A stretch of DNA of 64,000 bases. It comes from Mesostigma viride. Lineage: Eukaryota > Streptophyta > Mesostigmatophyceae > Mesostigmatales > Mesostigmataceae. Where the stretch lies: assembly GCA_009746045.1 (NCBI GenBank), contig RPFO01000016.1:761895-825894 (forward strand), in the 5' to 3' direction. The notes under the pieces are model-generated. The model saw only the letters and a list, made by a program, of their open reading frames with translations. It was not told the DNA's origin and searched no databases. Position numbers and translations under genes: made by a program. Positions 10,157 through 63,150 of the stretch are shown here, piece by piece (position 1 is the stretch's first letter; each line of letters starts with the position of its first letter).

Positions 10157-13100
10157 GTAAGTTGCGTGCTGTCAGCATACCGCTTCTGCCGTTCCCACGG
10201 CTTGCGCTGGTAAACGGGGAATTAAATGCCACTCGCCTTTACTTATAACCAACTAGAATTGCCCAAGGGGTATTTGAAACAGAATGTGACAAATATAACG
10301 GAAGCGTTGGCTTGTGAACGGGCGAATTTTCTGCGTAAGATTCCTGACAGCCCTTGCCCCACGGTGCGTACGCCCTGTAAGGAATGCATCGCGCCTTTGC
10401 CGCCGTGTTGCGGCTATTATTCTCGGTTTGCCGGTTGCGTAGACCGCGGTATATCGGGCGGCTTGTCGTCCTCCTTTTTGCTTGGCTCCTACCGTCCGCG
10501 GTCATTCCAACTGAAGCTGCCTATATTAGCCTCCTTATTGCGCGCCGTTAAAACCGTATCTGCACTTTTTAAAATTATTGCGTTTTCAGCTGCAAATGAC
10601 CAGCTGTGTCCACCACCCCCTAGCTGTTTTGACACTGGAGAGTGGGAGTTTGGTGGTCAGATGGGGCTTAGCTAGCTGCTATGCTGCCAGCATAAAAATA
10701 TGTTCATTAATTTTTTTAACTTCATTACTAACTAATTGTGTTTCCCATTTTTTTTTTCCTGTCTGGAATAGTAGGAATATTCTGCTTTTTCCAATTTGTA
10801 GCCGTGGTGATATCTTCTTTGTATAGCCTGGTGGCCAAGGTAGAGACCGAGGAAGATTTCTGGGGTGTACCAAAGCGGTGTTGGTGCAATAGATTGCATG
10901 GGGCCAAATGGGAGAGGGTGGGGCCGAGACCGTGGGACACATCATCTTTGCCTCTGCGAAAGGATTTATACCTTCGTGGCTTACATAAGCAACCATGCAT
11001 TTTTGCTGTGCTTTTGCACTTTACGCATCCTCATATCTTTTTCCCGTTTTGGTAATCCTCGATGTGAGCTCACTACCGTCACATCATAGCCGCCCCCGTC
11101 CATTACGGTATCCCACTTGTTTTCGCTCACAATTTTATGAGGAAAATGCAGGCATCCTCTAGTCGCGTAAGAGCTATGGGCACCTTTTTTGTGCAAGCTG
11201 CTGTCATTATTCACGTGATTTAGATGTCAGAGAAACCCCTTGTGTAGATCTTGAGCTGCTACCTTGTCACTGGCCTCTGTGAGTACACCTTTCTGCCAAT
11301 ACCACACACAACCCCAGGAGAAGGACGCGAGAGCATTTTCCACTAGCTTGTAGGCCTATGGTCGACAATTATAGACCTCTTATCCCTGAAGAGAATGGAT
11401 CCAGGTCTGAAACCTGAGCATTTTCGGCTGAGCTGTATACCCCCTCTACATCCCCTCTACACCCCCTCTTCCCCCTCTAGACCTCATTCTTATGCACCTT
11501 CCCTGCTTTCTTTACGCACCTTACTGTTGATTTCTGGAGGAGAACTGGAGCACCTCACACTGGCTGAACAACCCTTTCCCGTGCACCTTGCGATCATTTC
11601 CTTCTCACCTACCTACTACAGGAGGAGAACTGGAGCATCTTCCACTCGCTTACATTCCCCTCAAGCACACCCTGCTATAATATACTATAATACTGTCATG
11701 CGTTATCACCACAGGAGGAGAACTTGAGCATCTTCCACTCGCTCTGCTACCCGCCGAACGCGGATGGAGACGCGGCGGCGCCGCCCGTGCCCGTGGGCAA
11801 CATTTTCAAATTCCACCAGATGGGCGTTCAGCCCCAGACCGTGCTGCTCGTGCTGGACAGCTCCCTGCGGGTAGGTCATCATACCGTCCGTGCCATATAG
11901 CGTGTGCAACACTATTTGCGATAGATCCGTGTCTGCCAAGCGAAGTTCGTGCTGGACAGCCCCCTGCGGGTGGGTCCCAATCATGTTTCTTACCAAGCCT
12001 GGGCCTTGCTACCAGGGCTGAGCCTATGTCAAGGCTGGGTTCATGTCACATCAAGGCTGGGCTTAGAGCGCTGCAAGGTGGCACTTTTATACTGGCTGGA
12101 TCATTCTTTTCTAGGCGTTTCTCTTTCTACCGAGCCTGGAATGCATGTGTTTCTGGCGTGCACCATTTGGTTGGCTTTTCTGGCATGCAACGAATGGCTG
12201 GCCTTTGTTATATCGTAGAATGCTGCACTTGCCGACGCTTTGTTATCGTGCCTTGACACACCAGTGTGTGTTGTGTGTCATGGGCCGCCTGATGCCAAGT
12301 GCTGGCTGCGTGCAGACACACACTGTTAAAGATTTTTTGAAGCGTGAGATGGGAGCAATCAGCCTTGTTGGCCTGTAAAGTCCCTCATTGTAACTTAGGT
12401 TCAGTGCTTCTACTAAGGGTATTTGTCATTCGTCAAACGGTTGACTATTTGCCTCGGAACTTGGTCAAACGGTTGACTATTTGCCTCGGCACTTCGTCAA
12501 CTGGTTGACTATTTGCCTCGGCAATTCGTCAAACTGGTTGACTATTTGCCTTGGCGCTTCGTCAAACCTGGGGGGGGGGAAGCTTTATTTCTTTATAATG
12601 AACTTAAGGTCGCTCACACACGCATGTAATGCATGCGTGTGGATAAAACACAACAGCACTTGGTGGTTGTTGACAGCTGCATAAACTACAGAATAGTACC
12701 TAGTATCGTTCACAGCTAGGCCAGAGTCAAGTGTGCACAGCATGATGCCATTAAACAACCATCACGTCCTCCTCGCTGCTATCAACAGGCACGACTGTCA
12801 CAGTTTTGTCCGAGCTTGCCCTGCACCCTGCGCGCTGCGCGCCGCTGTCCACTTGTTGCCCGTGCCACCACCCATCCGGCGGGGGCCAGCTGCGTTAAGC
12901 CATTGTTGTACTCCTGTCTGTGCCTTTTCGTCCTGGGAGCTGGCTTTCTCTTGCCCTTCTTCTTACTTGGCTCAGAGCTGCCGCCATCATCGGCCTTGCT
13001 CCTTTCTGTCTCGGCCCCCTCCTCGCCAGATTCCTCGCTAGATTCCTCCTCGACAGAATTTGAGTGAGGCAATGTCAGATGATGTTGACTGGCTGCCACG

Positions 13101-16100
13101 TTCCTCTTCCTGCGCATGATACCCATCCTCACGGTCTACTCTTGCGTTTCTCGCGTTCCTGCCTGCCCTCCTTTTCATCTAAATTGCGGCCTAGGTCGAC
13201 GATATTTCCCGTTGCTACCGGAACAGTTTCTCCAGTTTGCTTCTCAAAGAGAGCATCTAAGGTGCTAGTCTTAAAACCTGCCAAACCGTTTTTCTTTGAC
13301 ATTCTCTAGCTCATGCAACACTCCCTAAACATCGCCCGCCGCCATTATCGAAACAATTTCACATGCAATATTTTATCGCACATGTAGTCGCCAGACGGCC
13401 TGAGGTCGGAGGGTTTAGTTAAATAATATTTTTTTCATGCCCTGGTCGGCCGGTCCTGCCTTCCCCGTCTTCAGTTACCCGGACATTGTCCTGAATCGTA
13501 CGGTCTTTCCAAACCAACTCTTAACCTGCAGCGTACCTAGGATTCAGCGGGTACGGGCTGACGGCCTGACGCTGGGCCACTGGACCTCAGGTCTGGCCTC
13601 TCTATGGGAAAACCTGACTTCCGTGGTTGACGAATACCCTACACATTTCGTCAAACCGGTTGACGAATTGCGGAACATATTCGTCAATTTGTTGACGAAT
13701 GTGGTTGACGAATGGCCCAAAATGGTATACTTTGTACTACTAATATTTTAATTCCTCAACCAGTTGACGAATTCGTCCCGTTAGTAGAAGCACTGCTTGG
13801 GTGTCTCTTGCTGGCATTCCATGGCATCTTTAGCGTGTGGCTTGAGGTAGCCCACCATCCGATTGCGATTGGCTTCACTTTGCCTAAAGATAATTATCTT
13901 GTGAATTACCCATTGGCTATGTTGGTGCGGTGGGGTGTGTGTGGGAGGTGTGGGGGTCATGTGCAGGTCACGGCTGTCAGCAGCAACTGCACCGACTGGA
14001 TGGGCTGTGGACCCCAGCAGCTGCTGGGGAGGGCGGCGGCGGATCTATTCGACGAGGTGCGGACGGTGATGTTTTTAGTTTTTTGCTTGGTTTAGGATGC
14101 AGGGCGGAAGCGTCCTGTCTGGGGCATCTTTTCTGTACTAGGGGGAGAAACTGACTGTAGTAGGTAAAGAGGTAAACAGAACTAGCCCCATTTTTTTTAT
14201 GCACTTGTGTGTTATCTGGCAAGCTCGGCACAGCCTCGGTGGAGCCTCGATGGAGCCTCGATGGAGCCTCGATGCAGCCTCGATGCAGCCTCGATGCAGC
14301 CTCGATGCAGCCTCGATGCAGCCTCGATGGAGCCTCGATGGAGCCTCGATGCAGCCTCGATGGAGCCTCGATGGAGCCTCGATGGAGCCTCGATGGAGCC
14401 TCGATGGAGCCTCGATGCAGCCTCGATGGAGCCTCGATGGAGCCTCGATGGAGCCTCGATGGAGCCTCGATGGAGCGTCGATGGAGCCTCGATGCAGCCT
14501 CGATGCAGCCTCGATGGAGCCTCGATGGAGCCTCGATGCAGCCTCGATGGAGCCTGGATGGAGCCTCGATGCAGCCTCGATGCAGCCTCGATGGAGCCTC
14601 GATGGAGCCTCGATGGAGCCTCGATGGAGCCTCGATGGAGCCTCGATGGAGCCTCGATGGAGCCTCGATGGAGCCTCGATGGAGCCTCGATGGAGCCTCG
14701 ATGGAGCCTCGATGGAGCCTCGATGGAGCCTCGATGGAGCCTCGATGGAGCCTCGATGGAGCCTCGATGGAGCCTCGATGGAGCCTCGATGCAGCCTCGA
14801 TGGAGCCTCGATGCAGCCTCGATGCAGCCTTGATGGAGCCTCGATGGAGCCTCGATGCAGCCTCGATGGAGCCTCGATGGAGCCTCGATGGAGCCTCGAT
14901 GGAGCCTCGATGGAGCCTCGATGGAGCCTCGATGGAGCCTCGATGGAGCCTCGATGCAGCCTCGATGGAGCCTCGATGCAGCCTCGATGGAGCCTCGATG
15001 GAGCCTCGGAGCCTCGATGGAGCCTCGATGGAGCCTCGATGGAGCCTCGATGCAGCCTCGATGGAGCCTCGATGGAGCCTCGATGGAGCCTCGATGGAGC
15101 CTCGATGCAGCCTCGATGGAGCCTCGATGCAGCTTCGATGCAGCCTCGATGGAGCCTCGATGGAGCCTCGATGCAGCCTCGATGGAGCCTCGATAGAGCT
15201 AGCCGTGGGTGGTAGTGCGATGCAGGTTTTGCAAGGACCTGTGGGATGGTAGCCAACACTGGTCGACGAGTCAAGAATGTCCACCTAGTTATCCTTAGCG
15301 CGGCCGTCGAGCCCTGCACAGTGACCATCTAGTTCCTCATTGTGACCACCTAGAGTTTCTTGTTGGGGCCACCTAGCTTCTTGTGGTGACCACCTGGTTA
15401 TACACCCTAGTGTGGTGACGGTATGCAACGGGGCACCGTGGTTGCCCAGAATAGCTGTGAGCAAGGCGGGTGACACTGTCACGTCTTTTGCGGTACTCAC
15501 GTGCCCGCTCTCGCTGCCAAGGGTAGAGGAAACACGCGGAGCCCCATGATGCTGTTGGCGATTAGCGTGGTGACCACATCCTGTGGGAAGCTTATGTTGG
15601 ACAGGTGTGGTAGAGGCACTTCAGCCTCACCACCTGCCTCACCATGCTTTTCCAAATATAATTCTCTCTGGTAGGAATGCACTCCGATGACTCCCTTGTT
15701 TTTTTCCAGACGTACAATGATCTAGTGGAATAATAGTATGGCGTTGTATGAACAAATCTTATTTTATCAATGTTGTTATTTTAGGGGGGGACAACCACAT
15801 TTTGTATCCAACAAGGACCATTGACCACTGTGCAACATACCACGATTTGTATCCATAGTACCTTTTTTCACGTGTTACAGAACGGCCGTTGCTGTCTTCA
15901 CATTCAACCCCTTGTCCATGACCATGCAGGGCCAGAGCAAGATGCTGGACGTCATCCACGCGCTTCGCACGTCTGAGGATTCGGCCAAGGAGCACCGCTT
16001 GCAGCTCACGCTCGTCACCCCGCTCATGCTGCGATCCACAGCTGGTGGGTGCTCGCGCGATAGCTTGTCCCTAGCACCTGTCTCACTCGTGCGACGATGG

Positions 16101-16266
16101 CTCGTGCACTTGGCGTTGCGGAGCCCACCGCGCGGGGTGTGTGTGGTGGGTTGGATGCCATTGCTTTCGCCAGCAGGCATGCCACATCCTGGCGACGGGG
16201 CAGCACCATCAAAATATCAATACGGTCACCTCATCTCTCTCTCTCTCTCTCTCTCTCTGCCTCCCT

Positions 16267-16346
<80 letters not shown>

Positions 16347-16460
16347 CTCCCTCCCTCCTCCTCCCTCCCTCCCTCCCTCCCTCCCTCCCTCCCTCCCTCC
16401 CTCCCTCCCTCCCTCCCTCCCTCCCTCCCTCCCTCCCTCTCTCCTTCTCTCTCTCTCTCC

Positions 16461-16517
<57 letters not shown>

Positions 16518-16893
16518 CCTCCCTCCCTCCCTCCCTCCTCCCTCCCTCCCTCCCTCCCTCCCTCCCTCCTCCCTCCCTCCCTCCCTCCCTCCCTCCCTCC
16601 CTCCCTCCCTCCCTCCCTCCCTCCCTCCTCCTCCCTCCTCCCTCCCTCCCTCCCTCCCTCCCTCCCTCCCTCCCTCCCTCCCTCCTCCCTCCTCCTCCCT
16701 CCCTCCCTCCCTCCCTCCCTCCCTCCTCCCTCCCTCCCCCTCCCTCCCTCCTCCCTCCCTCCCTCCCTCCCTCCTCCCTCCCTCCCTCCCTCCCTCCCCC
16801 TCCCCCTCCCTCCCTCCCTCCCTCCCCCTCCCTCCCCCCTCCCTCCTCCCCCCCCTCCCCTCCCTCCCTCCCCCCCCCCCCCCTCCCCCCCCT

Positions 16894-16925
<32 letters not shown>

Positions 16926-17027
16926 CCCCCCCCCCCTCTCCCCCCCCTCCCCCCCCCCCCCCCCCTCCCTCTCGCCCTCTCGCCCTCCCTCCCTCCCTCT
17001 CTCTCCCCGCTCGCCCCCCCCCGCCGC

Positions 17028-17081
<54 letters not shown>

Positions 17082-20000
17082 GTCTCTCTCTCTCTCTCTC
17101 CTCGACTCTCCCACTCTTGCACTTGAATATAGTACTTTTTCTTATCAATGATGACACTGCTTTATGCCTGTGTGCGTGCCTGTGTTTTGGGCGTGCACAT
17201 GTGGGCTTCTGCACGTGTATGTGTGTATGCATGTATCAACGGGACAACCAGCGGAAGCATGACATTACTGCACTAAGTGACCAGGGTGTCCATGAGGCAA
17301 CCAGCGCGGGCCAGAAGATGAACATGTGCATGTGCCTACATGTAGGCCTACATGTGTGTGAACATCTGTGTGTATTAGAGCATGTGCATGAGTCCAATGG
17401 CGCAGGTGTGCAATTCAAGGGACTCATGCATGTCTCCATGCATGCGTTTCTGCATGTGCGTGTGTCCCATGGTGCAGGCGTGCAACTAAAGGGCCTCCTC
17501 AACAAATCCGGGAAGCACTTCACCCTGGAGCTGGAGCGCTGTACCGACAGTATGTTGATGCTGTCGCGCCCTCTGCCTGCGGAAATGCATTCTATCCATG
17601 TGTCATCTTCCACTTCATCAACACTACAAAATCCAACCCATACTTGCTTTCTTGTCCATGCATTCTGGCATATCCAGAGCCTTGGGCTACGTCTGTGTGC
17701 TGGGTCATGTGTCCTTTTACGGGCATTCCTTGGCTTTTCCCCTCCACATGTACATTCCTTTTCCATGTTCTCGGCATTCCTTGGCCTCTTGCCTTCGTTA
17801 TTCATTGGCCTTCTGAATCGCTTGTTTTTTTAAATGCATCTTTCCTCTCGGTTGTTCTTGGCCTTCACCATTGGCATTTCTTTACGTTATCCCTCGTTTT
17901 CTTTCTCTTGCTTCCCTCGGTTTTCCCGGACGCCAGAGCAAGAGGAGTTTGAGGTGTACAACACGCTCAAGGACTTGGCAGCCCAGCTTCAGGCGCAGGC
18001 CAAGGGGGATGTTAAGGCCATCTGCAACGTGGTGGTTGGGGTGCGTTCTATTGCCGCTGATTACCTAGGGGTTTATTAGGTGTAAGCATATGGTTGACTT
18101 CACAGAGCCTGTGCATTTACTGGGCGCAGGGCAAGAGAGGCGTTGTCCAGGCGATCTGCAACGTGGTGGTTGGGGTGCATTTTCTTGGCCGCATGGGGGC
18201 TAGAGCATGATGGGTTGGCAGTTGTTTGCTCATTTGGCCATGGCATGCGCTAGTTTGCAGGCCGATAAGGGGTGTCAAGGCGATGTGCAGTGTGGTCCTT
18301 GGGGTGCGTTGTGCGGCCTCGGCTTCAAGTGTAAGCATCAGCCTTTCGATCACGTGAGAGGTAAGGTAGCGGATGGTAGGTTGGTAGTTGACACCAGCGG
18401 CAAGTGTATGGGCCAATACAGGCAAGAAGGAACGGAATAAGGGCGGGCTTGCTGATCAATCCAGGCAAGAAGGAACGGAATAAGGGCGGGCTTGCTGATC
18501 AATCCAGGCAAGAAGGAACGGAATAAGGGCGGGCTTGCTGATCAATCCAGGCAAGAAGGAACGGAGTAAGGGCGGGCTTGCTGATCCTGGGAAGCATGCC
18601 AGCCTGGGTGTCCTTGAGCGTCCGTCTCGAAACGTTTCTTTCTCTAAATGTTTTTTTTTCCCTAAAGGGTTTATTTCTTTCCCGCGTAGCCTAACCAAAA
18701 CTGCGGTCATGGTAAGAGTGGACATGCATGCAGGTTAGTCTAGTGTCCGCCACTCCCCGTGTGTACACTCTGGGCCATGCTTATTGTTCGATTTTCTTCC
18801 CATGCCTGCCATCTCAAAGACTGGATTCGGTACATTAAGACGCGTAGAAATCTCTGGGAACCATGCCACATTTGAATCGTTCGATGGCCATGGTGAAGCT
18901 GTATGGACCCAATCCCTTTCTGCCCCTCCCTCGTCCTCTTCCCTTCCACCACCCCTGCTGCCATCATCGATGCCTCTTGTGCCCTCGATATCTCATCATG
19001 TGTGCCCTGGATGCGCACGGCGTGTGTACCCACCTACGCTAAGTTTGCTATACTTGGAGACTTCGACTTCGGTGTTGTGTTTCAGTGGCGTACCTGACGA
19101 AGGAACCTCATTAAGAAAATCATCCTGAGATTTGCGATATGATATGCACTTGTGATATGCGCAGGTGGTGCGCAAGGTGCTGCAATACGACCGCGTCATC
19201 GCGTACAAGTTCAGCGAGGACGAGCACGGGGAGGTGAGCACCCTCACGGCACAGTAGAAATAAACAAGGCAGCCTGTTGGTAGGTGCCTCAATACGACCG
19301 CGTCATCGCGTACAAGTTCAGCGAGGATGAGCACGGGGAGGTGAGCACCCTCACGGCACAGTAGAAATAAACAAGGCAGCCTGTTGGTAGGTGCCTCAAT
19401 ACGACCGCGTCATCGCGTACAAGTTCAGCAAGGACGAGCACGGGGAGGTGAGCACCCTGACTGCCCAGTAAAAATAGACAAGGCAGCCTGTTGGTAGGTG
19501 ATGGCACCTCACCAGTCTAGCCCTTGCCTCCCTTTGACCACGTCATCGCGAAGGAGATCAAGATCCTACGAAGGAGAGAGATTAATTAATCAATCGGCAC
19601 GTGACTGCGTCACGTGGATACCGAGCAAAGGAACCTCAGAGAGAGATAGAGCATGGAAATGTGAACTTCGCTTGCTAGATTGAGTTTAGTTGGTAGTTGA
19701 GTCTCTGCCTGTCGTCCTTCCTACGAAGTGGCGCTCACATGCAGCCAGCTGACGTGCGCACATGCAGCCAGCTGACGTGCGCTGCATGCGCACAGTCTTG
19801 TGACGATGCATGCTCTCATAGGTACCGTGTTCTTACTAAGGCATGGCCAGAGTGTTTAATGCAGGCATGGTTAAACCGTTCATACCAATCTTGTTGCATG
19901 AAACTACTGTGATTCCTTAGCGTTTTTGTCCTTAGTTAGCCCCTGCGTGGCCCCTGTTGGTGGTGCCAAGCATGCGAGACTAACATGAGAGTTACTGGCT

Positions 20001-23000
20001 TGCTCAAAATATTCCTTCTTTGGTGGGAAGAGCTTATCTCTTTCCTAGCCACGCATCCCCCTAACGAGGCCTTCGCTCCCATTGCCCCCCCCCCCCCCCC
20101 CCTTTCAGGTGCTGGCTGAGTCCCTGAGCAACCCTGACTTCATGTCCCTCAAGGGTCTGCACTTCCCAGGGACGGATGTTCCATGGGTAGGCATTGATTT
20201 ATGGAGTGCATGCACGTGTGCTGTTTGTCGGGTGTGGGGTGCACGTGCACTGTTTGTCGGGTGCCTGCCGGCAGTTTTAGCAACAGGCTTGGATCACATT
20301 ATGGTTATCCCTGCAGTGCTGAAGATTGTGTTTGTGGAGGAGCACGCGTTTTCACTTGCCCACTGCGGTTTTGGTTGCAACTCTGTGCATGGCTTTTGCC
20401 ACTGAGTACGTCATCTCGAGCAGCCTATCTAGTTGTCTGTGTCCGCCCTCTCAAGGTAATTATGTAAGCCGTCATGTGGATCAACTTTGAAAAAAGGTTC
20501 TTTTTGTAAAGGTAGTAAAGCTTCTTATATACAAGTACCAGCTGTGCCTGTCCACTGCGCAAAGCACAAACTGCTCACACATGGAGGCCTGGCTGCCGCA
20601 AGCCTGATCACTACGCTATACTAGTATAATAATGTATACTGAAGTAGTATAGAAATGTAATGTGTACTAAACTAGTATAGTTTTATGTATACTTTTCTGT
20701 CTTATCGGGCACATGTGTGCGCTATACACTCTGACCGCTACTGCCACCGCTGTTTACTGTCTGAGAGTTCCTGCCAAGTCTCTATACACTCCGGGCATTT
20801 GTGCCAAAGCTCTTTCCAATCTGTAACTTACTATTGATTTGGAGAGTTGTGTCCATGCTTGACCTCTTGTGGCACCTGCGTTTGCCCCCCGCAGATGGTG
20901 CGCGAGTTGCTACTGGCGCGCCGCATGCGCTGGATCTATGATGTGGACTCCAAGCCGGTCCACATTGTTCACAACGGCTCGTTTGACGGCTCGCCCATCA
21001 AGCACGCGCATTTTGTGGGTAAGTGCCATGGTGGGTTATATATTCATTAGTGGTATACAAGTTTTGCGGGCCTCGCCCGCGACATTGGAGCTCGTTCTTT
21101 TTGTGGCCGGTCCCCGGCCAGGGAGCCCCGGCTAGGGATTGCGTGACACCACGTACCGCTGCCGAGGGCCAGGTGGCGCTAGCCTCGCCAAGGAGAGCGC
21201 GCTAGCTTTAGGGTTTCGACCACAAGATTCATGGAGGTTGGCAAAAGGGTGAAGAAAAAACCCCCGAAAAAAATGCAAATCCCAGGAAGACCCGAACCCG
21301 GAAACTTACGATTAGACTTGTGATGAAGACGTGTGCCTTGGCGCCTGAAGAGTACGCAACCAGTTTTACACGAAGTTGCACAATATGTATCTTGCTACAA
21401 AGGGACAACTTGCGCAACCGCGCAGTGGACGGAGCTCGCGAACTACGTCTTGCGGAGTTCAACTAGCTCCAGATTGACTGCTACCCCTGCACGGGAGCGC
21501 GATGCGCGCAGGGATGAGTGACCTCGCCAACCCCGCAGACAGCAGGGGAAAATCGCTTACAGGCGGTGGAGCAGAGGAAAATATACGAGTGAGCTTCCTG
21601 CGCGTTTGTAACTGGTTCGTCAGGATAAAGTTTGAGCAACAGCCCAAAAGTTTGCGATGGTTATATCTGGAGCTCGCGAACACAGGAAATCGCAGAGTTT
21701 GGCTCCTGCTGCAATCTGGGCATACGGACCTCTGCCAAATGGCTCATCTGGATGTAACGCACAAAAACCCTCATAATATGGATGCCGTGGTTTGACCTTT
21801 TCGTTATTGGTCGCAATGAAATTTCGCGCAGCTCATTCGTCAAGCGGACTGTAAGTCGCGCCGCTGAGTGGCTGGAGCCGAAAGCCGTTCGAAAGAGTGT
21901 TAGCTAAAATTGTGCCAAGGCTGTGTTTTACAAGCTTTAGTATATATGTTGATTTATTATAAAAGTGTTCGTGGGTTAGGATGCAACCCCTCTGACAGGG
22001 GCCACCTTTGTGAAGCCTGGGCCTAGAACCAGACACGGGGCCACGTTTGTGAAGCCTGGGCCTAGAACCATGCATTGGGCCACCTGTGGATCCCAGGCAC
22101 AGATGCTGTCTTTCACATCCTTACCTGGCGTGGGGGCTGATGCCAATGGTATGCTGTGAGAATCGTCATGCCAGCTCGCAATGGGTAAATAGCTTGGTCA
22201 TGCCCAGTGCCATTGAATGGGCATGCGCCTTTCCTGGCTGATGACGACAGCGTGTCTTTCAATTGCAGGACAAGGACTAGCCCAACCCTCGCTATGCGTT
22301 GACGCACTCTCTGTGATAGGGATGTCTTGTTTTTCAAAGCCCTCATGTTCAAGACTAAACGAACACCCCGCTCACACCGCGTTCCCACCCCACCCCGGCC
22401 GGCATCCCTACCTCGCCTCCATCCGCCTCCATCCGCCTCCATCCGCCTCCATCCGCCTCCATCCACCTCCATCCACCTCCATCCACCTCCATCCACCTCC
22501 ATCCACCTCCATCCACCTCCATCCACCTCCATCCACCTCCATCCACCTCCATCCACCTCCATCCACCTCCATGCATCGCGGTGCAGAGGTCCACCCCTGC
22601 CACCTGCAGTATCTAAAGAATATGGGCCTGAAGAGCTCCGGCACGCTGGGCATCGTGCTCCCGCACGCGCCCCGGAAACTGTGGGGAATCATCGCGTGCC
22701 ATGGGCTGCTGACCGCCAAGCCCGTCTCCTTTGCCAAGCTCGTGACCGCGTCGCTCATCTGCGAGGTGGGTTTTGCCCCCGCGTTTCCATGCACACGATG
22801 TTGGGCTGTTGCTTTAGCTGTGAGCCAGCATTTTGTACGGTTGTTGAGCACCACATGTCTGTTGAGTCACATCTCATACTTCTCGCGTTCTATTTTTATA
22901 CTGCACCACCCTGGTGTTAGACCCCATCGGGGCCATGTGCTCATGCCATCTTCCTAGGTGAACCCTCCTCAACCATGGCGTGTGTCGTATGACCCAACCT

Positions 23001-26000
23001 CAGTCAATGGGCCGCTTTCTCCCTAGATCCATTTGGCCCCTGCAAGCAGCCCCTGTCATCGCCGCTGTAAGTTTTTCTGCTCCTTCCCTGTAGTTTCTCT
23101 GCTCTTAGCGGACAGACCCTACCTTTGGAAGTCTAGAATGACTTCCTCCATCACCGCCAAGTTTTCATACTTTTGAAGAGTTTGCAACTCCGCTCCTGCG
23201 CGGTTCCTCCTGCGACTACCAGCGCTTCTGCCCCTAGCAATCGTACCTCCCCACTCTGTTTGCGGATGCCTACCGAGCTGCTTGTGGCCATGCACTCAAC
23301 ATGCAGATGCCTCGCGATCGACTTGTGGCCATGCCCCTTTCCCTGCGACCCGCAGCTCTTCTGCTCCTACCTGGCGCAGGCGCTGCACACGGAGGCGCAC
23401 CTGCGGGACCTACGCGTGGTTCGCATCCAGGCGATGCTGTTGGAGCAGCTGCAGCTCACAACCGGGCGGGAGTTCAGCCACTGGGGCATTGACATGATGG
23501 ACATGGTGTGTGACATGGTATTGTATAGTAACACAAGTAGACCTGATAGGGGCGAAGCTCCTTTAATTTTGTGGACTCAATTATTCGAGACTCCTATTCA
23601 AGCCCGGCTGCTATCGAAATTCCCTTGCCCGCCCGTGGCCCGTCACGTTGCCCATGGCCCGCTGCCCGTGGCCCGTCGCCTGTGGCTAGGGGCCCATTGA
23701 AATTCCTTCCATCCCTCCGTTGCTGAATTTTTTTTCCCCGTGGCTAGTCAGTAGTGGCCCATGGCTATTGGCCCGTCGCCCGTTGCCATTGAAGTTCCTT
23801 CCGTCCCTCGTTCATAGTAACATGCTCCTTTGCTGCGCTTCGGAGGGGAGGCGCTTCGCTTGAGTATTATCCCCCAATCGTGGCATTCGGCATCGCGAAT
23901 CTTGCAACCAACAGCCACCGAGTCTACTTAATATAATAGAAAGGATCTTTTAAAGAGTTGTGGTCTTTGCAATGTATCATCAGCGTAGCATTGCTAATAT
24001 CCTGCAAGACTTGATTTTGCTCTAAATAGGATGAGGAAGCTTATAAATGGTAACAAACGATAATTTCAGAAGAAAGAACTCGAATATGTTGTGCGGGTAA
24101 ACGAACTGAACGTGTACCTACAAGTTTTTCAACTGCTAATGAGTACGCGTGTTCTGGCGCCATCTTGGATACATAATCTAATCGATAAAAATATGGTAAA
24201 GCTTGTAAATATTTTTTGTATTCTATTAATTTTTCAGTTCCTCTATGTAACAAACCAATGTGAGGATCTGCTCTTTCCACAACCCTTCTCCATTCATTTC
24301 CAATACTCAACCTAATTATGGTCTTATCAGCTTTCTATTAGCATCGTGCTGCTGTTATGCTGATCTTGTCCCATGGCTGCATGATTGGATGGACCGGGCA
24401 GCCTCAGGTTTCGGTTCACTTTGGATGTGACTTCCAGCAAATACAATTTTCATGTGCGCTGGGTTTGTCGTTCCCCATGCACCCCACATGCAATGTCTTG
24501 TGTTTATTCTTGCCTTGCCAGTCATTTGTGCTTTCTGTGTTCTCGACCCCCATGGTTTTTCTTTGCTACTCTTTGTTTGGTCGCTCTGTTTTCCTTGCCC
24601 CATGCACCCCCCTGGCCAGGTGGGCGCGGACGGGGTGGCGCTCATGCTCAGCGGCAACTTGTTGATGATGGGTGTGCACCCGTCGCATGAACAGGTACGG
24701 GGGGCAGGGTGCCACCGCCCGTGTTTTTTCAAGCGGTTCTTAGAAGGCCAGGTACAGAGGGCAGGTGCCGCCGCGCGTGTCCCTGGAAGCGGTTCTTAGA
24801 AGGCCAGGTACGGAGGGCAGGTGCCGCCGCGTGCGTCCCTGGAAGCGGTTCTTAGTTAGGAGGCCAGGTACGGAGGGCAGGTGCTGCTGCGTGCGTTCCT
24901 CGAAGCGGTCCTTAGAAGGCCAGGTACCGAGGGCAGGTGCCCCCGCTTGCGTTCTTGGAAGTGGTTCTTTTTAGGCCGTTCTTATCAGCAGCAACCCGCG
25001 TTCTTGAGCGAGGGTGCCATCCATCACCTGTTAACCGAGGCCGCGTCTTCTTAGCAACATCTGTCCAACCTGGGTATTAAAGCAGCATCGGTCTTATATG
25101 GCGTCGTGCAAGACTTGAGCTCAGTACTATGTCTAATTGGATACACAGGGCACCTGTGTACAGGCAGTCCTACCGTTCGCATGGTGGATGTCCAGTTGGG
25201 AGAAGGACGCTGGATCACTGCGGTGACCTGCCTCGCAACCTGTGCCCGGGGCTTGAGCAACTGAATAGCAAAGTTCCTCTTTTCCTGCACACAGGGGTAA
25301 GAACTAGTGCGCTCCGACCCCCCGCCCGTGTCACTCACAATCCCTTTTTTTTTTTTTTTTAAATTAGGTACTTCCCGCACAAGGGCAATGTTCATGCTAT
25401 GCAAGCGCTTGCTGATTCACTGATCAGGTCACCAACTCCTTAACACCCCTCCCCCCCAAATTCACTCTGTTTCCCAGATCTTGGACATGGTCAAGTGGCT
25501 AACGGAACGGCGAGTGCCACGTGGGGAGAACTATGACAAGTACGAGGCCCCCCCCGTGGTGGAGGTCTCGCTGCGCAAGGTTGGGTTCACCGACCTGGAC
25601 AAGGTCGACGTCTGCGGCGTGCTGCTGCTGCTCCTTGACGATGGAGACTTCGTCGTCTGGTTCCGCAAAGGTGGGTGCCGACTCTGTCATCTGGTTCCGC
25701 AAGGGCGGGTGGCATAGGCTAGGGAGGGGAAGAGGGGGGCAGTGAGGGTTGCGGCGGGATGTATCCAGGATGCTGATCTCACCTTGTTCCAATAAGGTGG
25801 AGGAAAACGGGGGTTCCGGGGTTGCGATGCATTATGAGTGCAGCAAAGAAAAAGGACGGGGAAAGGGGGGGGGGGGGGAGCTATTGTTGTTGTTGGGGTT
25901 GTTGTTGGGGTTCCTGCCATGGTGGGATTGCGAGGCTGGTATTTGGGTTGTAGGCAAGGGTAACGGAGTCGTGTTTCTTTCGTCTCTGTGATCCTCGGGT

Positions 26001-29000
26001 CGTAGGGCTGCATGCATCTCCTTGTTCCTTTGGTTCAGCCCGATTTTGATATCGAGTTATGTATTCAAGATGGCAACCCCTTCATCGACACTTGACACGC
26101 TCGCTCTCATCCCTAGGATACCGTCCTCCCTGCCCAGCATCATCAACTATCCTCTTTTTATGTATTCAAGATGGCAACCCTTCATCGACACTTGACACGC
26201 TCGCTCTCATCCCTAGGATACCGTCCTCCCTGCCCAGCATCATCAACTATCCTCTTTTTTGTATTCAGATGGCAACCCCTTCATCGACACTTGACACGCT
26301 CGCTCTCATCCCTAGGATACCGTCCTCCCTGCCCAGCATCATCAACTATCCTCTTTTTTTGTATTCAAGATGGCAACCCCTTCATCGACACTTGACACGC
26401 TCGCTCTCATCCCTAGGATACCGTCCTCCCTGCCCAGCATCATCAACTATCCTCTTTTTATGTATTCAAGATGGCAACCCTTCATCGACACTTGACACGC
26501 TCGCTCTCATCCCTAGGATACCGTCCTCCCTGCCCAGCATCATCAACTATCCTCTTTTTTGTATTCAAGATGACAACCCATCATCGACACTTGACACGCT
26601 CGCTCTCATCCCTAGGATACCGTCCTCCCTGCCCAGCATCATCAACTATCCTCTTTTGTGTATTCAAGATGGCAACCCCTTCATCGACACTTGACACGCT
26701 CGCTCTCATCCCTAGGATACCGTCCTCCCTGCCCAGCATCATCAACTATCCTCTTTTATGTATTCAAGATGGCAACCCCTTCATCGACACTTGACACGCT
26801 CGCTCTCATCCCTAGGATACCGTCCTCCCTGCCCAGCATCATCAACTATCCTCTTTTTGTGTATTCAAGATGGCAACCCCTTCATCGACACTTGACACGC
26901 TCGCTCTCATCCCTAGGATACCGTCCTCCCTGCCCAGCATCATCAACTATCCTCTTTTTATGTATTCAAGATGGCAACCTTCATCGACACTTGACACGCT
27001 CGCTCTCATCCCTAGAGACCGTCCCCCTGCCCAGCATCATTAACTATCCTCTTTTTATGTATTCAAGATGGCAACCCCTTCATCGACACTTGACACGCTC
27101 GCTCTCATCCCTAGGATACCGTCCTCCCTGCCCAGCATCATCAACTATCCTCTTTTTTTGTATTCAAGATGGCAACCCATTCATCGACACTTGACACGCT
27201 CGCTCTCATCCCTAGGATACCGTCCTCCCTGCCCAGCATCATCAACTATCCTCTTTTTTTTTTTTTGTGTGTGTGTGTCCTGGCGACCGCGCTACCCTCT
27301 TGACCGTTCAGGTGACACATCCCCAGCATCTCCCGTACCTTTCCCAAGTCGCATATCATCGCTACTTCTCCAACTGTTTCACCTTTCTCGGTTTTCCTCC
27401 GCCCCGGCCCTTCCGTTCCTTGCTTTTGCACCATGTGGCGCCTTTTTTATAGTTAATGTAATCTATAAATCTCGTTAACGCGTAGATAAGTCTCTGTTGG
27501 ATCTGTGCCCTTCCGCTGCCCTCCTTTCCTCCCCTTTGCTTTGTTTCGAGCCAGAGAGCGCGTGCATTGTCCAGTGGCCAGCGGCGGCGGACCAGGCGGC
27601 ACGTGAAGAGTTCCAGAAGATCCTCAACCCCCACCACTCGTTCGCGCTTCTCTCGAGCATCCAGAAGCACTGTAGCAAGCCGTGGAGCGCGAGCGACGTG
27701 CTGATCGCACAGAACTTCCGTGAGGTGCTCCAGGACTCGGTCACCAACCGGAAAGCGCGGTCGCTGCTGCGGTGGGAGGCCAAGGTGCGTGCAGCATGTC
27801 GCAATTGAAAAGGGAGTGGAAGAGGCTTGGAACTGCGTATTGTGCAAGCCCCCCCCATTCGGGTCCGCGAATACGCCCAAACCATTCCCTTCACAAGTGT
27901 TCGCTTCTACCCACCGAAATCGGCCATCCGTTGTGGCTCTACCGGCCAACCGAACAAACAAGCATGCCATCAAATGAACAACCACTTGCCTGCACTCCCA
28001 TGGAGCCCTCCTTAGTTCCTTGATCAAATAAATGGGAGACCACATGAACGTTCACGTATGAAAACCACTAGCTATAATTTTTTAGCTATCTGCTCATTTA
28101 GTAGTTATGGTGCGGCGGGCTCAAAAAGAGCCGACCTGCCGCCTGTAGCGTAGTTCTACCGTCCGTCACCTACATCATGTGAGTTGCTTGTTGTCACATA
28201 GGACTAGAGAGAAGGGGACCGGTGTTGTGCTGGTACCAGTGCCTACTGGCAACCGTGCCCGTTCTTAATTGAGGGGGGTGCGGCTCCTGGAGACATGTGC
28301 TTTGTTTTCCATTACAATAAGTGTGTGCAGGCTTTAACAAAAAGAAAAAGGTGGGCTGGCTGCTGTGGGGTCGCTTTGCGGGCAGTATGGCGGTTACGCC
28401 TAGTGTAAGTCGACGCTGCCAGCCTCCCCATTTTACGGAGAGGTGACCCGCTGTTTTTCGATATATTGGTGAAGGGCGGTAGTTCTGGTCCTAGGGTGTT
28501 CCCCCATGGCGCTGGGGTGTGCCAGCCGGGCTCCAGTTGGGAGCCCGTAGTGACTTGAATTTGGAAAGTCAAGGAAGAGGGAAGGCGGTTTTGAGGGAAG
28601 GGGCGTTTTTGCGGAGAGATATGCGACAGGACAGTGCGATGTGACGATCCCTGAAGGAAGGGCTAGATTTGCCCTCGAGTAAAGTGTCCCCCGGCGATTT
28701 TATCCTTGTGGCGGCATGCACGAGGGAAGCAGGGCGTTTTTCAGATAGATCGGGGTCAAAAGAAACCAGAGGCAGAGGAAGGTGCACCAATGGCAGTGGC
28801 TGCCGTCGGTCGGGGCGTTCTGTCGGCATGGGGAGGGTGCAGGCGCCTGTACCCTCAAGGCGTTCCGGCGAGCACCCCCCTTCTGCCCTTGGTGATAAGG
28901 GAGAGAGGTGGGAAGCCGCTGTAAACCGTGGGTCTTCATGCGCATTTATTAAATCCTTTGAAAAATGCTACAGAGCCTGGCAAGCCTGGAAAAAAATTTT

Positions 29001-45811: not shown

Positions 45812-46655
45812 CGTCCGCGACCGCTTCAAGCTGTTGGGGAGTTGGCTTCCTGACACTGCCGACGATGTGGACACCCGCATCGGCCTTGCCTGGGCCAAGC
45901 TCCGTTCGCTCAAAACCTACTGGCGCTCGAAGGGCCTGGGCGAGCACCGCAAGCGCATGCTCTTCAAGGTCCTCGTCCTCACGGTGCTCACGTATGGCGC
46001 CGAGGCGTGGACAATCCCACCCAAACTGGCAGCTAGGCTAGCTAGACGGCACGGTTTACAGGATATGCTCCGACAGGTCCTTAACGTAGGGTTTTCCGAG
46101 CGTCCGTCATCAGAGTCTTTGTATCATGGCATGCCTCGTATTTCGGACGAGATTAGGCAGCGTAGGATAGCATTTGTAGGACACCTTGCTCGCACCAGCC
46201 AGGTCGACACCGCCCTTGGTCTGGCCGGCCCCCAGCGGCTTGGCCAGCCAGGGCGACACATTCTGCCCTGGCCTGGCCCCGAGGGCATTCCCAAAAGGGC
46301 AGGGAATCCTGTCACGAACTACATCCAGATGTTGCTGGACGACCTAGTGGTCCCAGCCCAGTTTGAGCACCGCATCCACTCTCTCTCCCGTCTTTGAACT
46401 GCCATGCAGGACAAGACGCGGTGGAAGAAGATTGTTGATCAAGGCGCACACGCCCGACCCTGTGGGCAAGCCCCCTCCCCCCAAGCGGAGCCGGAGGCGT
46501 TTTGATGAGTAAGTGTAGTTAGGATTTTCTAGACTAGATAGCTTAGAGTTAGGATAGTTCGATCACGCGGCTTCCTCCACCCCATCCATCATGGAATATG
46601 TGCTACATGATCTCCCCACGGAGGCATATGTTATATAATTTAATTTAATTTTTTA
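45812..46655 (+). pseudogene. 5'-truncated LINE copy, reverse transcriptase C-terminus
   Basis: An open frame (45,834-46,397) encodes the region after the reverse-transcriptase palm: RSKGLGEHRKRMLFKVLVLT, YGAEAWT, then ESLYHGMPRISDEIRQRRIA and FVGHLAR. These are the usual C-terminal blocks of LINE ORF2 proteins. It is about 85% like 57,420-57,860. The 5' end stops abruptly at about 45,812. The 3' end has the family hairpin (CTCCCCACGGAG) and a TTTAA-type tail (46,635-46,655). Possible target duplication: ATCACAATT on the left, ATCACAACT on the right. The catalytic part is missing. Confidence 0.8.
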
Positions 46656-48783: not shown

Positions 48784-48795
48784 TAAGTTATACAG

Positions 48796-55740: not shown

Positions 55741-56039
55741 ACGCCCTGGCTATGTTCAGATTACTTGCCCACGCTATACTTGTTATGCTACGCTTACATG
55801 GGTCTTATTGCACCCACATGACTGCCGGATCGTTAGCGTGTCCGTTTAGCTAGCGCGCCCGAATGCAGCTGGGGCATGCCTTTGGCATGAAGGAGACTGG
55901 GGGTCTCTGCCCTTTCTCCTGTAGTGCACACACAGGGATTAAAAGCACTTCGGTGCTCCGTGACTCCCCAACGGGAGCACGAGTTTAATTAATTAATTAA
56001 TTAATTAATTAATTAATTAAGGCCTGCCAAGCTCGCAAC

Positions 56040-58745: not shown

Positions 58746-59274
58746 TGCAGACGATATTTGTAACTTTCGTGTAATTATTTTTCTAATGAGATAAACATAG
58801 TACACTCCGTGGCATGCCCATGCCCATGACGCGCAAGTTCTCACTGACTTAACCCGTTGTGACCCTCCCTGGAAGCCGGAACAGGATTTGGCAGCGCCAT
58901 ACAACAGTGGTACCCGCACTGGTCATCGGGCACCCTGGATGGCCCACGTGGTTGCAATGATGTCTTCTGTGCATCTAGTGGAGAACTGATAGCTGCCAGG
59001 CATGCATGATACAGCACCTCCCTGGTTGCAGGGGCGCCAGTATCTACCGATCATGAAGCATAACAAGTACAAGACTGCAATGCCTGGACGCACCGGTCCA
59101 CGGAGCATATGCATAGGTGATGCATAGGTGACAAAATCGACTGGTCACAACTTGTGAACACCTTCAATATTGATTGTGACCACCAACAGTATCGAGGTAT
59201 CTATCCGCCTTTATCGAGGGTTACCGATGGACTTGGCAGCATTCCTTCAGGCTGGCACGCTACAACCAGATACT
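58746..59274. other. intergenic with a dispersed repeat
   Basis: The part 58,743-58,860 is a repeat also seen at 45,130-45,440 (GATGCAGACGAT, TAATTATTTTTCTAATGAGA, CCGTGGCATGCCCATG, GACTTAACCCGT). The rest shows no gene. Confidence 0.5.
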
Positions 59275-62200
59275 TCATGAGAACTGCGCGGCAACCCTCC
59301 TGGAGGCATCCCCAGCCCCCGCAGCACCCCCCGGTTGTCGCGTAGTTGTCATGATCACCTCATGGCACGCGGTCAGAAGCTCCATGATCTCTGGCTGGGA
59401 CAGGCTCGCCTCCCCCATGGCCAGATTGGCCGGGTGCAGCAGGTAGTTAACGTCCGCGTACAGCCGGTCCAGATCCTCCTGGCTCCCATTGCTGACCGCT
59501 GCGCGCATGAAGCGCACCCACGAGAGGAAGACGGGAAACTTGGCGCGGGTGAACGACCCCAGGAGCATCGCCTGCGCGGTCTTGACCGATGCCTCGTACA
59601 CCCACGCGGGGTAGATGCTCGCGATCTGGGCGGACAGCATCTGCTGGAGGCGGCCCTGGGTCCCCAGGGTGTAGGACTCGACTGTGCCATCGGCAGACGG
59701 CACGCACTGCGCTGCACCCAGGCCGACGAAGCTCTGCGTGGGACCAAGTTGGGGGGTTGGAAGTGTTTGGGGGCGGGCGTAAGAGGGGGAGTGGGCATGT
59801 TGGGAAGTGGTTGGGGGCGGGCATAGGAGGACAGATGGTGAGGAGAGGAGAGGGTACTAACGAGGAGGGTATTGGAGGGGGGATAGTGAGCAGATGAGAC
59901 GAGGAGAGGGTATAGGAAGGCAAGAGGGAGATCCTTCACATATGCTTGATTAATAACGCAGACCACAGGAAGCGCTTGAAGCGGCCTTTTATGATGCAAC
60001 ACACACCTGCATTCAACATCTCCATGGGGCACCTCCACTCAGGATTGAACAGCTATTTCCAACCTAAACACTCACGTTGACCCAGGTTGATACATCGGTA
60101 CTAAAAAATATCCATTTACAATCCCACCCTCACGCTGACCTAGGTAGTTGCCTCCATACTTAACATAGCTATTTATAGCAAGAGAAAACTCACGTTGACC
60201 AACTCCAGCGCGTCGACATAGTTCCCCTCCTGCAGGTGGATATACGCGAGCTCCTCGGGCCCCAACCCCATGCCGCTCAACTGAGCCGCAAACCAGCCCG
60301 TGGCCGAGGGCCAATCCCCCGCGGGTGTCACGGGAGAGAACGAGGCCAGTAGCGTGACGCCTGACGCGTTGACCATGGTTAATAGCGTCTTTGCGAGTGA
60401 TGCGGTGTCTAATGGGAACAGGGCTGCTCCCAGGGTGGCAGCCTCGCTGTCCTCAAGGGTGTGCTCTTTCGTGGCATCCTTTTTTCTGTCCGAGCCACCC
60501 GGGGTGCGATCTCTCCCCCCCCCTTCCCTCGGACTGCGAGCCCCCCCCCTTGTTGTGCTTGAGCTCGTAATGGCGCTGCGAGTGCGGGTGCGCAAGGAAT
60601 GTCGAGCGAGCGTTCGTGTAGTGGTCGGTGGAGGGGTCCAGGTGGAGCGCCGCCAGGGACGCCAGGCGGGTTACCACGATCGTCGCAGGGAGGGAGGGCA
60701 GCGGCAGTTTCTTTGACACCCGGGCTCCTACTGCTCCTCCTAGTCCTGTGCTTCTGGCTCCGGCTCCGGCTCCCCCTCCTGCCCCCCCGCCTGACCCGGA
60801 TGCCCCCCCTCCCCCTGCTCCTCCCCCTCCCCGCCCTCCTGCTGCTGCTGCTGCCGCTCCAGCGGCCCTGGCTGATGAGGGTGAGGATGAGGATGGCCCC
60901 GATCTCACGACCTCCTTTCCCCCCAAGGAAGCAGCCCCCGCCCCTGCAGGGACTCTCTCGTTACTTCCACCATCTGCCCACCCGTCCCTGCCCCTGCCGG
61001 CATTCTTGCTACCGGCGTCGCTGCTGGCGGCATCAGTGGAGTTATCCGTGGCGGGGGTCTCCAGGCAGGCGAGAAAGGAGGCCAAGTTGACCGCGAGCCA
61101 GGAACAGACGTCAGCGCGTGCTTTGTAGCCCTTGGGGGTGGTGCCCCGGCTGGCCTCGTCACATTCCGAGAATACCTGTGTTTGTGTTTATGTTTGTGTG
61201 TGTGTGTGTTTGTTTGGTGGTGTGTGTGTGTGTGTGTGTAGGAGGGGGGGTAGGAGTGGGGGAGGAGGGGCCACAAGTTATGGTGAGACAGTGCGTACAA
61301 CCTGCTGATGTCGATACCTTACTGGTACTGTTGCGACATCACACTCCAAGACCTGTGGACCTGCGGATGTGTGAGGATGGGTCGATGGGAGGTGACAAGG
61401 ACAGATTCCAGCTTGGGTGAAAGGTATTATTGTTTACAATAGAAATACTTCCACAACATATTAATAAAAAAAAGTATTACTGTCATCACCGTATTCGTTC
61501 AAACTACCATCATGACCGGTATTAAATTAAATTCAATTAAAATATAACGTGACTCCAATGGGAGATCACGTAGCACTATATATACTTCTAGTATATGATA
61601 TGTACTAGTAGTATATATATTAGTATATGATATGTACTAGTAGTATATGATGACTAAAACTGATTCCAAGCATTTAGGACCGGGAGTACCATGCTCTCTA
61701 CTCTTGTATTTAATACCTTGTGATCGCAGCGCGAGCGGCAGCATGGGTGCAAAAGAATAGTAGCAAAAGATAACAACAACTGTAATATTAACGCACTGTA
61801 ATATTAATACACAGTAATATCAACACACTATTAATTAATACACTGTAATATCAACACACTATAATTAACACACTGTAATTAATACATAGTGCGGTACCCT
61901 GCATCCACGCCTCCCACATTCCCATGGCATTGAGATGTTTCCCATGCGTTGCACCATCCCCAAAACACAAGGCAAAAAAGGTTTAAGTCTATACTCCCCA
62001 CCAGCCGCGAGGTATCGGCCAGCTTGTGCTGCCTATCTCACCGCAACGATTCCAGCGTGACCCAATGCTACAGGACCACAGATGACTCATGACCACAGAT
62101 TCCTTTGGCCCCACCTGCAGGGCAATACCCCCCAGCAGTGTCGCCATCCCCATCCCATGGCAATGTTATATATATTCATTGAGAATGATAAATTACGGAG

Positions 62201-63150
62201 GTGAGCTTGGCATATATATATTTCCAAAAAATTGAGAAAAAGCTTATTCACCATCCCCACCGGCCACGTGATATCTGCCATCCCTGCATCTGCCGTGATC
62301 ACGTTACAATGCTTCCTATTTACTATAGCACATGTACAGAACATTTACAGTTTAACTATTGCAGCACAAAAAAGTTCATCATCCCCACCTGCAGCGCGAT
62401 GCCCGCCCGCGGTGCCTCCTTCTTGATCCCATCGCACCATGTCATATGATAAGATTCACAAAAAATATACTACTATAATATGTTGCGTTACACTTATTCA
62501 TCGACCCCGTCCTATGGTACATAATATACTTATATTCGCTACCCCCTATATTCACTACTTCTCTACTTATATTCGCTACCCCCCATATTCACTACTTCTC
62601 TACTCATATTCGCTACCCCCTATGTTCACCACTTGTCTACTTATATTCGCTACCCCCTATGTTCACTACTTCTCTACTTATATTCGCTACCCCCTATGTT
62701 CACTACTCTACTTATATTCGCTACCCCCCATATTCACTACTTCTCTACTCATATTCGCTACCCCCTATGTTCACTACTTCTCTACTTATATTCGCTACCC
62801 CCCATATTCACTACTTCTCTACTTCGTCCCCACCTGCAGCGCAATATCTGCCAGCTGTGCGGACAGCCCCAGCACCGGTAGCCCCCCCGTCGCAAACACC
62901 GTCTGCGCCAGCACCGCCATGTGCGTCGCAAACGCGACATCTGGCACCCTCGCGATTGACGCCATCGCGTGGACGTGGGCGCGCGCGGTGGCGGCGGCAG
63001 CCTGGTCAGCCGTGACGTCGGCCAGGGAAGAGGACCGGGCGGCGAGCCGGTTGGTGACCTCGGGGGGGAAGAGGGTGTCCACGTAGACTTGGAGCGCCTT
63101 GGTGTGGCCGGGGCGCACGCCGGACTGGCCACGGAAGTGGTAGCAGTAGT
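59275..63150 (-). CDS. unrecognised protein, three 3' exons (5' end not found)
   Basis: Exons on the minus strand: 63150-62834, 61175-60194 and 59733-59275. All junctions are GT-AG and the frames agree except for a one-base shift in the middle exon at runs of nine C (60,515-60,523 and 60,541-60,549), where the frame must change. Exon a reads YCYHFRGQSGVRPGHTKALQ … ARAHVHAMASIARVPDVAFA … LADIALQ. Exon b starts VFSECDEASRGTTPKGYKAR, has a long Gly/Ser/Ala-rich insert, and ends EELAYIHLQEGNYVDALELV. Exon c is helical (YPAWVYEASVKTAQAMLL … LDRLYADVNYLLHPANL) and ends in a TGA. The protein looks all-helical and soluble. I do not recognise the family. The splicing pattern and codon composition support a real gene. 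Confidence 0.65.
60071..60206 (-). repeat. 58-60-bp repeats of an exon end and donor (minus gene)
   Basis: On the minus strand GGTCAACGTGAGT (60,206-60,189, the true exon-b end and donor) recurs as AGGTCAGCGTGAGG at 60,146-60,129 and GGGTCAACGTGAGT at 60,086-60,071. Spacing is 58-60 bases. Confidence 0.85.
61204..61242. repeat. (TG)n microsatellite
   Basis: Short TG dinucleotide run with TTTG interruptions just beyond the exon-b acceptor of the minus-strand gene, where it serves as part of the CA-rich acceptor tract on that strand. Confidence 0.85.
61520..61600 (-). mobile_element. retroelement 3' tail fragment
   Basis: On the minus strand: GTGCTACGTGATCTCCCATTGG, with hairpin CTCCCATTGGAG, followed by GTTATATTTTAATTGAATTT, the family end with an AATT-type tail. 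Only this tail is recognisable. The upstream side runs into ATATAC/TAGTA repeats. Confidence 0.65.
61994..62833 (-). repeat. decaying copies of the exon-a end and donor (minus gene)
   Basis: The exon-a end on the minus strand is GATATTGCGCTGCAG followed by GTGGGG. Related ends are at about 62,400 (GGCATCGCGCTGCAGGTGGG), 62,263 (GCAGATATCACGTGGCCGGT then GGGG), 62,116 (GGTATTGCCCTGCAGGTGGG) and 62,003 (CCGATACCTCGCGGCTGGTG). Every copy keeps a GTGGGG donor. Confidence 0.75.
62524..62824. repeat. ~37-bp tandem array next to the exon-a donor
   Basis: Eight units with TTATATTCGCTACCCCC, (T/C)AT(G/A)TTCACTACTTCTC and small deletions. The array ends 10 bases from the exon-a donor on the minus strand, so it is the first thing in that intron. 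Confidence 0.93.

Follow-up and report, generated by a model that had tools for sequence, protein, structure and literature searches.

Local tandem copies of exon edges and their splice sites in introns of Mesostigma viride

Exon-edge copies in two genes

The introns of a phytochrome-response regulator gene of Mesostigma viride (Streptophyta) contain copies of the edges of their own exons, together with the adjoining splice sites. The gene has 26 exons and lies in a stretch of 64,000 nucleotides, here called the window (contig RPFO01000016.1 of assembly GCA_009746045.1, our C1768:761895-825894), which also holds an unnamed gene on the minus strand with similar copies. The copies run across the exon-intron junction as in unspliced DNA, tandem arrays lying wholly within introns stand beside them, their ages relative to paralogues of the gene differ from edge to edge, and one donor has been duplicated repeatedly. 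We judge it somewhat better than an even chance (probability about 0.55) that they arose by pervasive slippage-type local duplication, and that exon edges are over-represented in part because old copies can still be recognised by comparison with conserved exons. A serious rival to this reading is a genuine bias of duplication towards splice donors.

Each edge of the phytochrome gene, represented by 30 exon and 10 intron nucleotides, was searched in the adjacent intron, with 100 equal-length draws from other introns and 100 shuffles as controls. Strong copies were found at 7 of 25 donors (exons 2, 6, 7, 13, 18, 22 and 24; scores 17-38) and at 2 of 25 acceptors (exon 2, score 32; exon 5, score 19), and at none of these edges did a single intron draw or shuffle do as well. 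A first-pass annotation, made from the letters alone, had listed nine donors and the same two acceptors in this gene. Both acceptors and seven of the donors are thereby confirmed; the exon 12 donor is borderline, only three exon nucleotides and the donor being common to a 56-bp array, and the exon 16 donor is unsupported (score 7; with a longer query 14 against a threshold of 13.5, in a match that does not include the donor). Also borderline are two other donors (exons 15 and 17) and two acceptors (exons 11 and 17). Copy numbers per edge, given earlier as one to six, range from one to seven: exon 24 has seven donor copies above threshold, the last one weak, while exon 7 is followed by two further 107-bp units. 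For the minus-strand gene, copies had been claimed in both introns; intron 1 has four copies of the exon end with its donor, whereas intron 2 has none above threshold and only two matches of about 12-15 nt recognised by eye. Exon-internal 40-mers are nearly copy-free, with 0/255, 1/610 and 1/340 in three comparisons. The genes, copies and arrays are as follows (window coordinates; L-numbers denote stretches of related gene copies described below).

11270..43101, plus strand: phytochrome-response regulator gene, 26 exons, from spliced alignment to P0001; start codon and exon 1 donor uncertain.
11536..11650, plus strand: two copies of the acceptor and start of exon 2, at 11536 and 11615; shifts 178 and 93.
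11947..11984, plus strand: one copy of the end of exon 2 and donor; shift 99; stretch matched collinearly by both C3 paralogues.
17345..17425, plus strand: one copy of the acceptor and start of exon 5; shift about 72-75.
18123..18325, plus strand: two copies of the end of exon 6 and donor; shifts 131 and 262; C3 paralogue L033 also has two copies.
18414..18586, plus strand: intron-only array, 43 bp x4; single unit in L033.
19175..19500, plus strand: 107-bp x3 array across the exon 7 donor; each unit takes in 59 exon nt (exon end at 19233); L033 has one unit, fragment L035 two.
25681..25711, plus strand: one copy of the end of exon 13 and donor region; 26/31.
26057..27258, plus strand: intron-only array, 101 bp x12; about one diverged unit in L030 and L032.
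32375..32395, plus strand: one copy of the end of exon 18 and donor; 19/21; within a 60-bp x2 array.
36218..36366, plus strand: two copies of the end of exon 22 and donor; shifts 98 and 201.
39325..39941, plus strand: two young copies of the end of exon 24 and donor, at 39325 and 39848; 89/94 each; within a 14-bp satellite.
40234..40841, plus strand: five older copies of the end of exon 24 and donor, at 40234, 40332, 40443, 40599 and 40758; stretch common to the C3 paralogues.
59275..63152, minus strand: unnamed gene, partial model 63152-62834, 61175-60194 (frame not resolved) and 59733-59275.
61984..62415, minus strand: four copies of exon end and donor in intron 1 of the unnamed gene; shifts 445, 573, 719 and 831.

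The phytochrome model was obtained by spliced alignment to P0001, a Mesostigma viride phytochrome model first matched by a rough exon translation (89.8% identity over 1123 aligned residues). It encodes 1603 amino acids with one terminal stop and was edited by hand: the boundary of exons 20 and 21 was shifted, two pieces were joined into exon 22 and a 6-nt exon was removed. The exon 1 donor at 11326 was aligned as GC, not GT, and the 5' end of the gene is uncertain. The last exon of the minus-strand gene has no Pfam match. An array of eight 37-bp units (62527-62824) sits between the donor of this gene and its exon-edge copies.

Copies at predicted exon edges of other genes

The occurrence of such copies in unrelated genes, already proposed by the first-pass annotation, extends to the predicted edges of several other genes. 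On contig C1, twenty-seven 10-kb stretches were read, four of them partly or wholly N, and edges were tested in 9 of the 27, making up three 30-kb stretches chosen for coding segments in their middle. Exons were predicted from codon bias and a splice-site matrix; 37 of the 67 listed coding segments were picked by eye before testing, retroelement-like and poor ones being dropped. Pfam names among the segments include RtcB, trehalase, glycosyltransferase 29, the AAA_11 and UvrD helicases and a TIG protein. At a score of at least 17, copies accompany 6/35 predicted donors and 5/37 predicted acceptors, against 139/3179 non-coding positions taken from all non-coding DNA and 1/610 exon-internal comparisons. 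At a score of at least 25 the donor count is 3/35 (P 0.03, all-non-coding control).

Structure of the copies

The best copies of the seven strong donors and two acceptors extend 4-10 intron nucleotides past the junction, although the search did not require it. With a query limited to 60 nt on either side of the junction, the donor copies of exons 2, 6, 22 and 24, the two full exon-7 copies and the four of the minus-strand gene comprise 23-49 exon nucleotides and 7-60 intron nucleotides. Such unspliced passage across the junction fits tandem duplication at the DNA level rather than reverse splicing, one of the causes put forward in the first-pass annotation. Insertion of exon-edge copies by reverse splicing or from reverse-transcribed RNA would agree with the clustering of copies at exon edges; however, exon and intron are joined as in unspliced DNA on both sides of the splice site, the copies are local and tandem, and the mark of such a process, copies bounded exactly by splice sites, was not found among the donor copies examined. 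From the form of the copies we consider this origin extremely improbable.

Copies are direct and arranged head to tail at a roughly regular shift. Nineteen of 30 shifts measure 72-218 bp, and those above 218 bp belong to further copies in a row or are satellite-spaced. The earlier statement that copies are most alike next to the exon and decay with distance is true of exons 6, 7 and 22 and of the exon 2 acceptor. It does not apply to exon 24 (identities in order 0.92, 0.92, 0.71, 0.75, 0.83 and 0.75), to the minus-strand gene, to an RtcB donor whose farther copy is the better one, to acceptor A3802 or to the copy of exon 6 on contig C3. Mostly the exon is the hub of similarity, the exceptions being C3 copies, as is expected if the exon is conserved while its copies drift.

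A GT stands at the donor position in 17 of 20 donor copies. This might suggest that the copies of donors in introns have been retained because they serve some purpose, whether as decoys, in recursive splicing or as U1-binding sites protecting long introns. Against this, the GT is preserved in older copies at a frequency of 0.87, no different from the exon letters next to it (0.87), which gives no sign of a function; moreover, the count took only copies aligned across the junction, which favours kept donors. Conserved decoy donors are thus unsupported, and retention for function appears very unlikely.

Paralogues date some of the duplications

Two paralogues of the window phytochrome lie in opposite orientations on contig C3 (C3:573185-604734, plus strand, and 620668-652291, minus strand). 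Around exons 13-16 they are about 75-89% identical to the window and, in the longest match, 93.6% identical to each other. Fragments of one more copy of the gene, L035 (368-564) and L036 (138-377 and 874-1058), lie on C1768 (about 234 and 254 kb), 520-550 kb upstream of the window, and carry exon-edge copies of their own at exons 7, 24 and 25.

Around exon 7, an interval of 58 bp between matches in both C3 copies corresponds to 350 bp in the window. L033 has a single unit, in which AGGTG occurs in the exon and again in the intron, at the points where the window units start and finish. The window units are 93-99% alike, more than the window and L033 (80% over the whole match, 84-89% for single units), which favours gain in the window over loss on C3; the exon-7 copies appear to be younger than the split from both C3 paralogues. 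Two units, with 93% likeness to the window, are present in fragment L035, about 547 kb upstream; the duplication is therefore older than this fragment. In exon 7, P0001 and L033 share two residues that differ in the window gene.

The same region bears on whether the introns themselves were recently made by tandem duplication of AGGT-bearing exon segments, for which excerpts of one paper set out a model (PMC4974935). AGGTG does bound the exon-7 unit, but the units already hold a donor and intron sequence, and a C3 paralogue has intron 7 without extra units, so at exon 7 the intron came first. Recent intron gain of this kind is highly improbable.

At exon 24, positions 38968-40239 of the window are unmatched in the C3 copies, and the older donor copies lie in DNA common to C3; fragment L036 has the older copies and lacks the satellite. 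The satellite with its two best copies would accordingly seem peculiar to the window gene. This 14-bp satellite (38953-40231) has seemingly grown from one TTAYGGTCTGTTA-like unit, single in a C3 paralogue, and was seemingly then duplicated along with an exon-edge copy. The donor copies of exons 2 and 6 sit in DNA common to the C3 paralogues and are older. To judge by match coordinates only, the exon 2 acceptor array has apparently one unit fewer in one C3 copy. An exon 14 donor copy is present in L030 only, not in L032 or the window. A donor copy of exon 25 is found in L034 and L036 and not in the window; its presence in L036 excludes a copy private to C3, and it may have been lost from the window or gained apart. 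L033 and L034 were selected at window donor-copy sites, and the dated window events are thus biased towards donors.

Intron growth by repeated duplication

Recognisable tandem or local duplicates make up 31.9% of the intron bases of the phytochrome gene and 7% of its exon bases. Their share is 4.6% in the repeat-rich intergenic DNA at 43.9-58.9 kb and ranges over 10-19% in three other 30-kb stretches; in one Markov shuffle it is 0%. The intron-only arrays at 18414-18586 (43-bp) and 26057-27258 (101-bp) are expanded in the window and about single-unit on C3, and unit number varies among homologues at exon 7 (3, 2 and 1 units), at exon 24 and in both of these arrays. The paralogue differences, the share of local duplicates and the arrays beside the edges bear out the first-pass proposal that the introns lengthened by repeated duplication. 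Excerpts of the M. viride genome paper credit repetitive elements with 30.1% of the intron space and the resulting long introns (PMC6947507).

Dispersed repeats were also seen. Positions 12461-12695 are a short interspersed repeat with dozens of genome copies, most at 86-93% identity among the best 40 of 167 candidates. Two repeat copies at 45814-46566 and 57421-58178, 86% alike, look retroelement-like by eye; a Pfam scan of part of this repeat gave nothing, and relatives occur in several C1 stretches.

How such growth might proceed can be outlined. Introns in general would be subject to short-range head-to-tail duplication of DNA, in units of a few tens to about 220 bp. Where such a unit reaches across an exon edge, its outer copy would stay functional and its inner copy turn into intron; selection would hold the exon half of the outer copy while the inner one drifts, leaving edge duplications recognisable for longer than those confined to introns. 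The intron would be lengthened and reshaped as such events recur, as subunits expand into satellites and as DNA is deleted. Slippage or microhomology-primed repair would be the mutation, as one clear breakpoint pair suggests, with drift and selection presumably acting as the filter.

Over-representation of exon edges

In the main test, with short-period arrays masked, the control for each edge was a set of positions within its own intron or flank (61 donors, 62 acceptors). Several results weigh against uniform duplication seen through conserved exons. At score 17, copies occur at 14/61 donors against 4.4 expected (3.2-fold; 0 of 20,000 draws as high), and with the control rate raised 1.8-fold P is still 0.005; at score 25 there are 7 against 3.0 (2.4-fold, P 0.01; P 0.19 with the 1.8-fold control rate). 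The three stretches not chosen for the pattern give 6/34 donors against 2.0 (P 0.008; 0.036 and 0.11 with control rates raised 1.4- and 1.8-fold) and 5/36 acceptors against 1.75 (P 0.02; 0.07 and 0.17, respectively). Clear microhomology is present at only one breakpoint pair (AGGTG, exon 7) and is weak at the intron-6 array. When uniform duplication, drift, small indels and deletion were simulated with conserved exons, edge-to-interior ratios came to about 1.3 in two settings, 0.8-1.8 at score 17 in eight, and at most 2.2 at higher scores. Ratios above 1 mean that, in the model, the visibility of conserved exons covers part of the excess; but the 3.2-fold donor excess exceeds what this neutral model gives, the simulated ratio does not fall for young copies, and the model accounts neither for how large the excess is nor for why it fades. 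The modelled filter thus leaves part of the donor excess unexplained.

The remaining counts complete this picture. Donors at score 20 number 11 against 3.7 expected, and the youngest donor copies are in no significant excess (4/61 against 2.5 at score 30 or more; 3 against 2.1 at 34), which argues against strong targeting. Acceptors over all stretches show no significant excess (7/62 against 4.1 at score 17, 3 against 3.4 at 20), nor do they at higher scores (2 against 2.7 at 25, 1 against 2.3 at 30, 0 against 1.9 at 34). The window alone, put forward for this very pattern, gives 8/27 donors against 2.4 and 2/26 acceptors against 2.3. Compared directly, donors exceed acceptors at score 20 (11/61 versus 3/62, Fisher P 0.025; P 0.10 at scores 17 and 25). 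An earlier introns-only control gave 10/52 donors and 5/51 acceptors against 3.8 each, and at scores of at least 25, 4 and 2 against 2.6, not significant; in it, edges that had no picked exon next to them were omitted, among which 3 donors and 2 acceptors have copies, and the exon-24 copies were hidden by the automatic mask. All earlier versions of the control agree in direction, the introns-only version being weakest. Because the fuller same-intron control enlarged the donor excess, it lowers the odds for uniform duplication and raises those for donor bias.

It is therefore a tentative possibility that duplication is biased to splice donors, or that donor-spanning duplications are better retained, so that most intron lengthening takes place at the 5' end; the cause might be breaks linked to transcription, or RNA-DNA hybrids forming where the intron starts. 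The donor counts above speak for it, both overall and outside the window, as do the donor-acceptor difference at score 20, the duplication of the exon-24 donor in no fewer than two periods and the exon 14 donor event in one C3 copy only. The stronger version, in which donors are tandem-duplication hot spots in Mesostigma and introns grow mainly at the 5' side in separate bursts in different gene copies, we regard as rather doubtful. On the other side, from score 30 upwards the excess is not significant, arrays confined to introns are common and also recent, the readable exon-7 breakpoints lie 59 and 48 nt off the junction, and acceptors are in similar excess in the other stretches. The first-pass annotation had described the duplications as anchored on splice sites. 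The donor excess agrees with this, and edges are copied more often than the random genic segments it had named as a yardstick, exceeding exon-internal positions throughout and, for donors, intron-internal ones. Anchoring is not borne out by the acceptors overall, by the youngest donors, by the intron-only arrays or by breakpoints tens of bases away, and splice sites as a target of duplication are unproven, the numbers being too small to decide. In a duplicated donor the correct site is transcribed first, in a duplicated acceptor the wrong one; acceptor duplications may thus be removed more often than donor ones.

Comparison with known systems

With local duplication as the preferred reading, conserved exon edges could serve as reference copies for old duplications, making the rate and decay of intron growth measurable genome-wide. 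Should the donor excess hold for young events across the genome, it would point to a link between duplication and splicing or transcription. About 32% of the intron DNA of one gene is local duplication, partly dated by paralogues, to be set beside the repeat-driven intron length described in excerpts of the genome paper (PMC6947507). We searched 439,911,974 bases in 2243 contigs; the same excerpts give a genome of 441.8 Mb. Among the passages on introns, exons, tandem sequences and repeats in two Mesostigma genome papers, the 12 of 13 and 12 of 16 listed do not mention exon-edge copying.

Three features of minisatellite-type local tandem duplication are present: head-to-tail copies, occurrence away from splice sites and differences in unit number among homologues. 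A fourth, short homology at unit boundaries, was read clearly at exon 7 and weakly at the intron-6 array. In a comparison with introners, the exon 6-8 stretch matched the C3 paralogues, one C1768 fragment and short repeat pieces elsewhere (among the best 40 of 47 candidates).

Tandem duplications carrying splice signals are a source of new introns in potato RdRp and in Drosophila cases, according to excerpts of the respective papers (PMC4974935, PMC2891723). The likeness lies in the carriage of splice signals by a tandem duplication, which in potato also crosses an intron-exon boundary (PMC4974935). In Mesostigma, by contrast, the duplications extend introns that were already there: the copies are absorbed into the intron, and exon 7 acquires no new intron position. 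Zhuo in 2007 reportedly traced human introns to tandem arrays, and Gao and Lynch in 2009 are said to have treated internal gene duplication. These cases resemble ours in repeat units that contain splice sites and reportedly concern alternative splicing and intron creation, whereas Mesostigma shows repeated, decaying intron lengthening. In the human interferon-induced gene 6-16 (IFI6), a minisatellite spans an exon-intron boundary, a tandem array likewise giving several donors at one exon end; that is a single locus, whereas many exon edges are involved here. What stands out in Mesostigma is how dense the duplications are, how they recur at the same edges and that they lengthen introns already in place.

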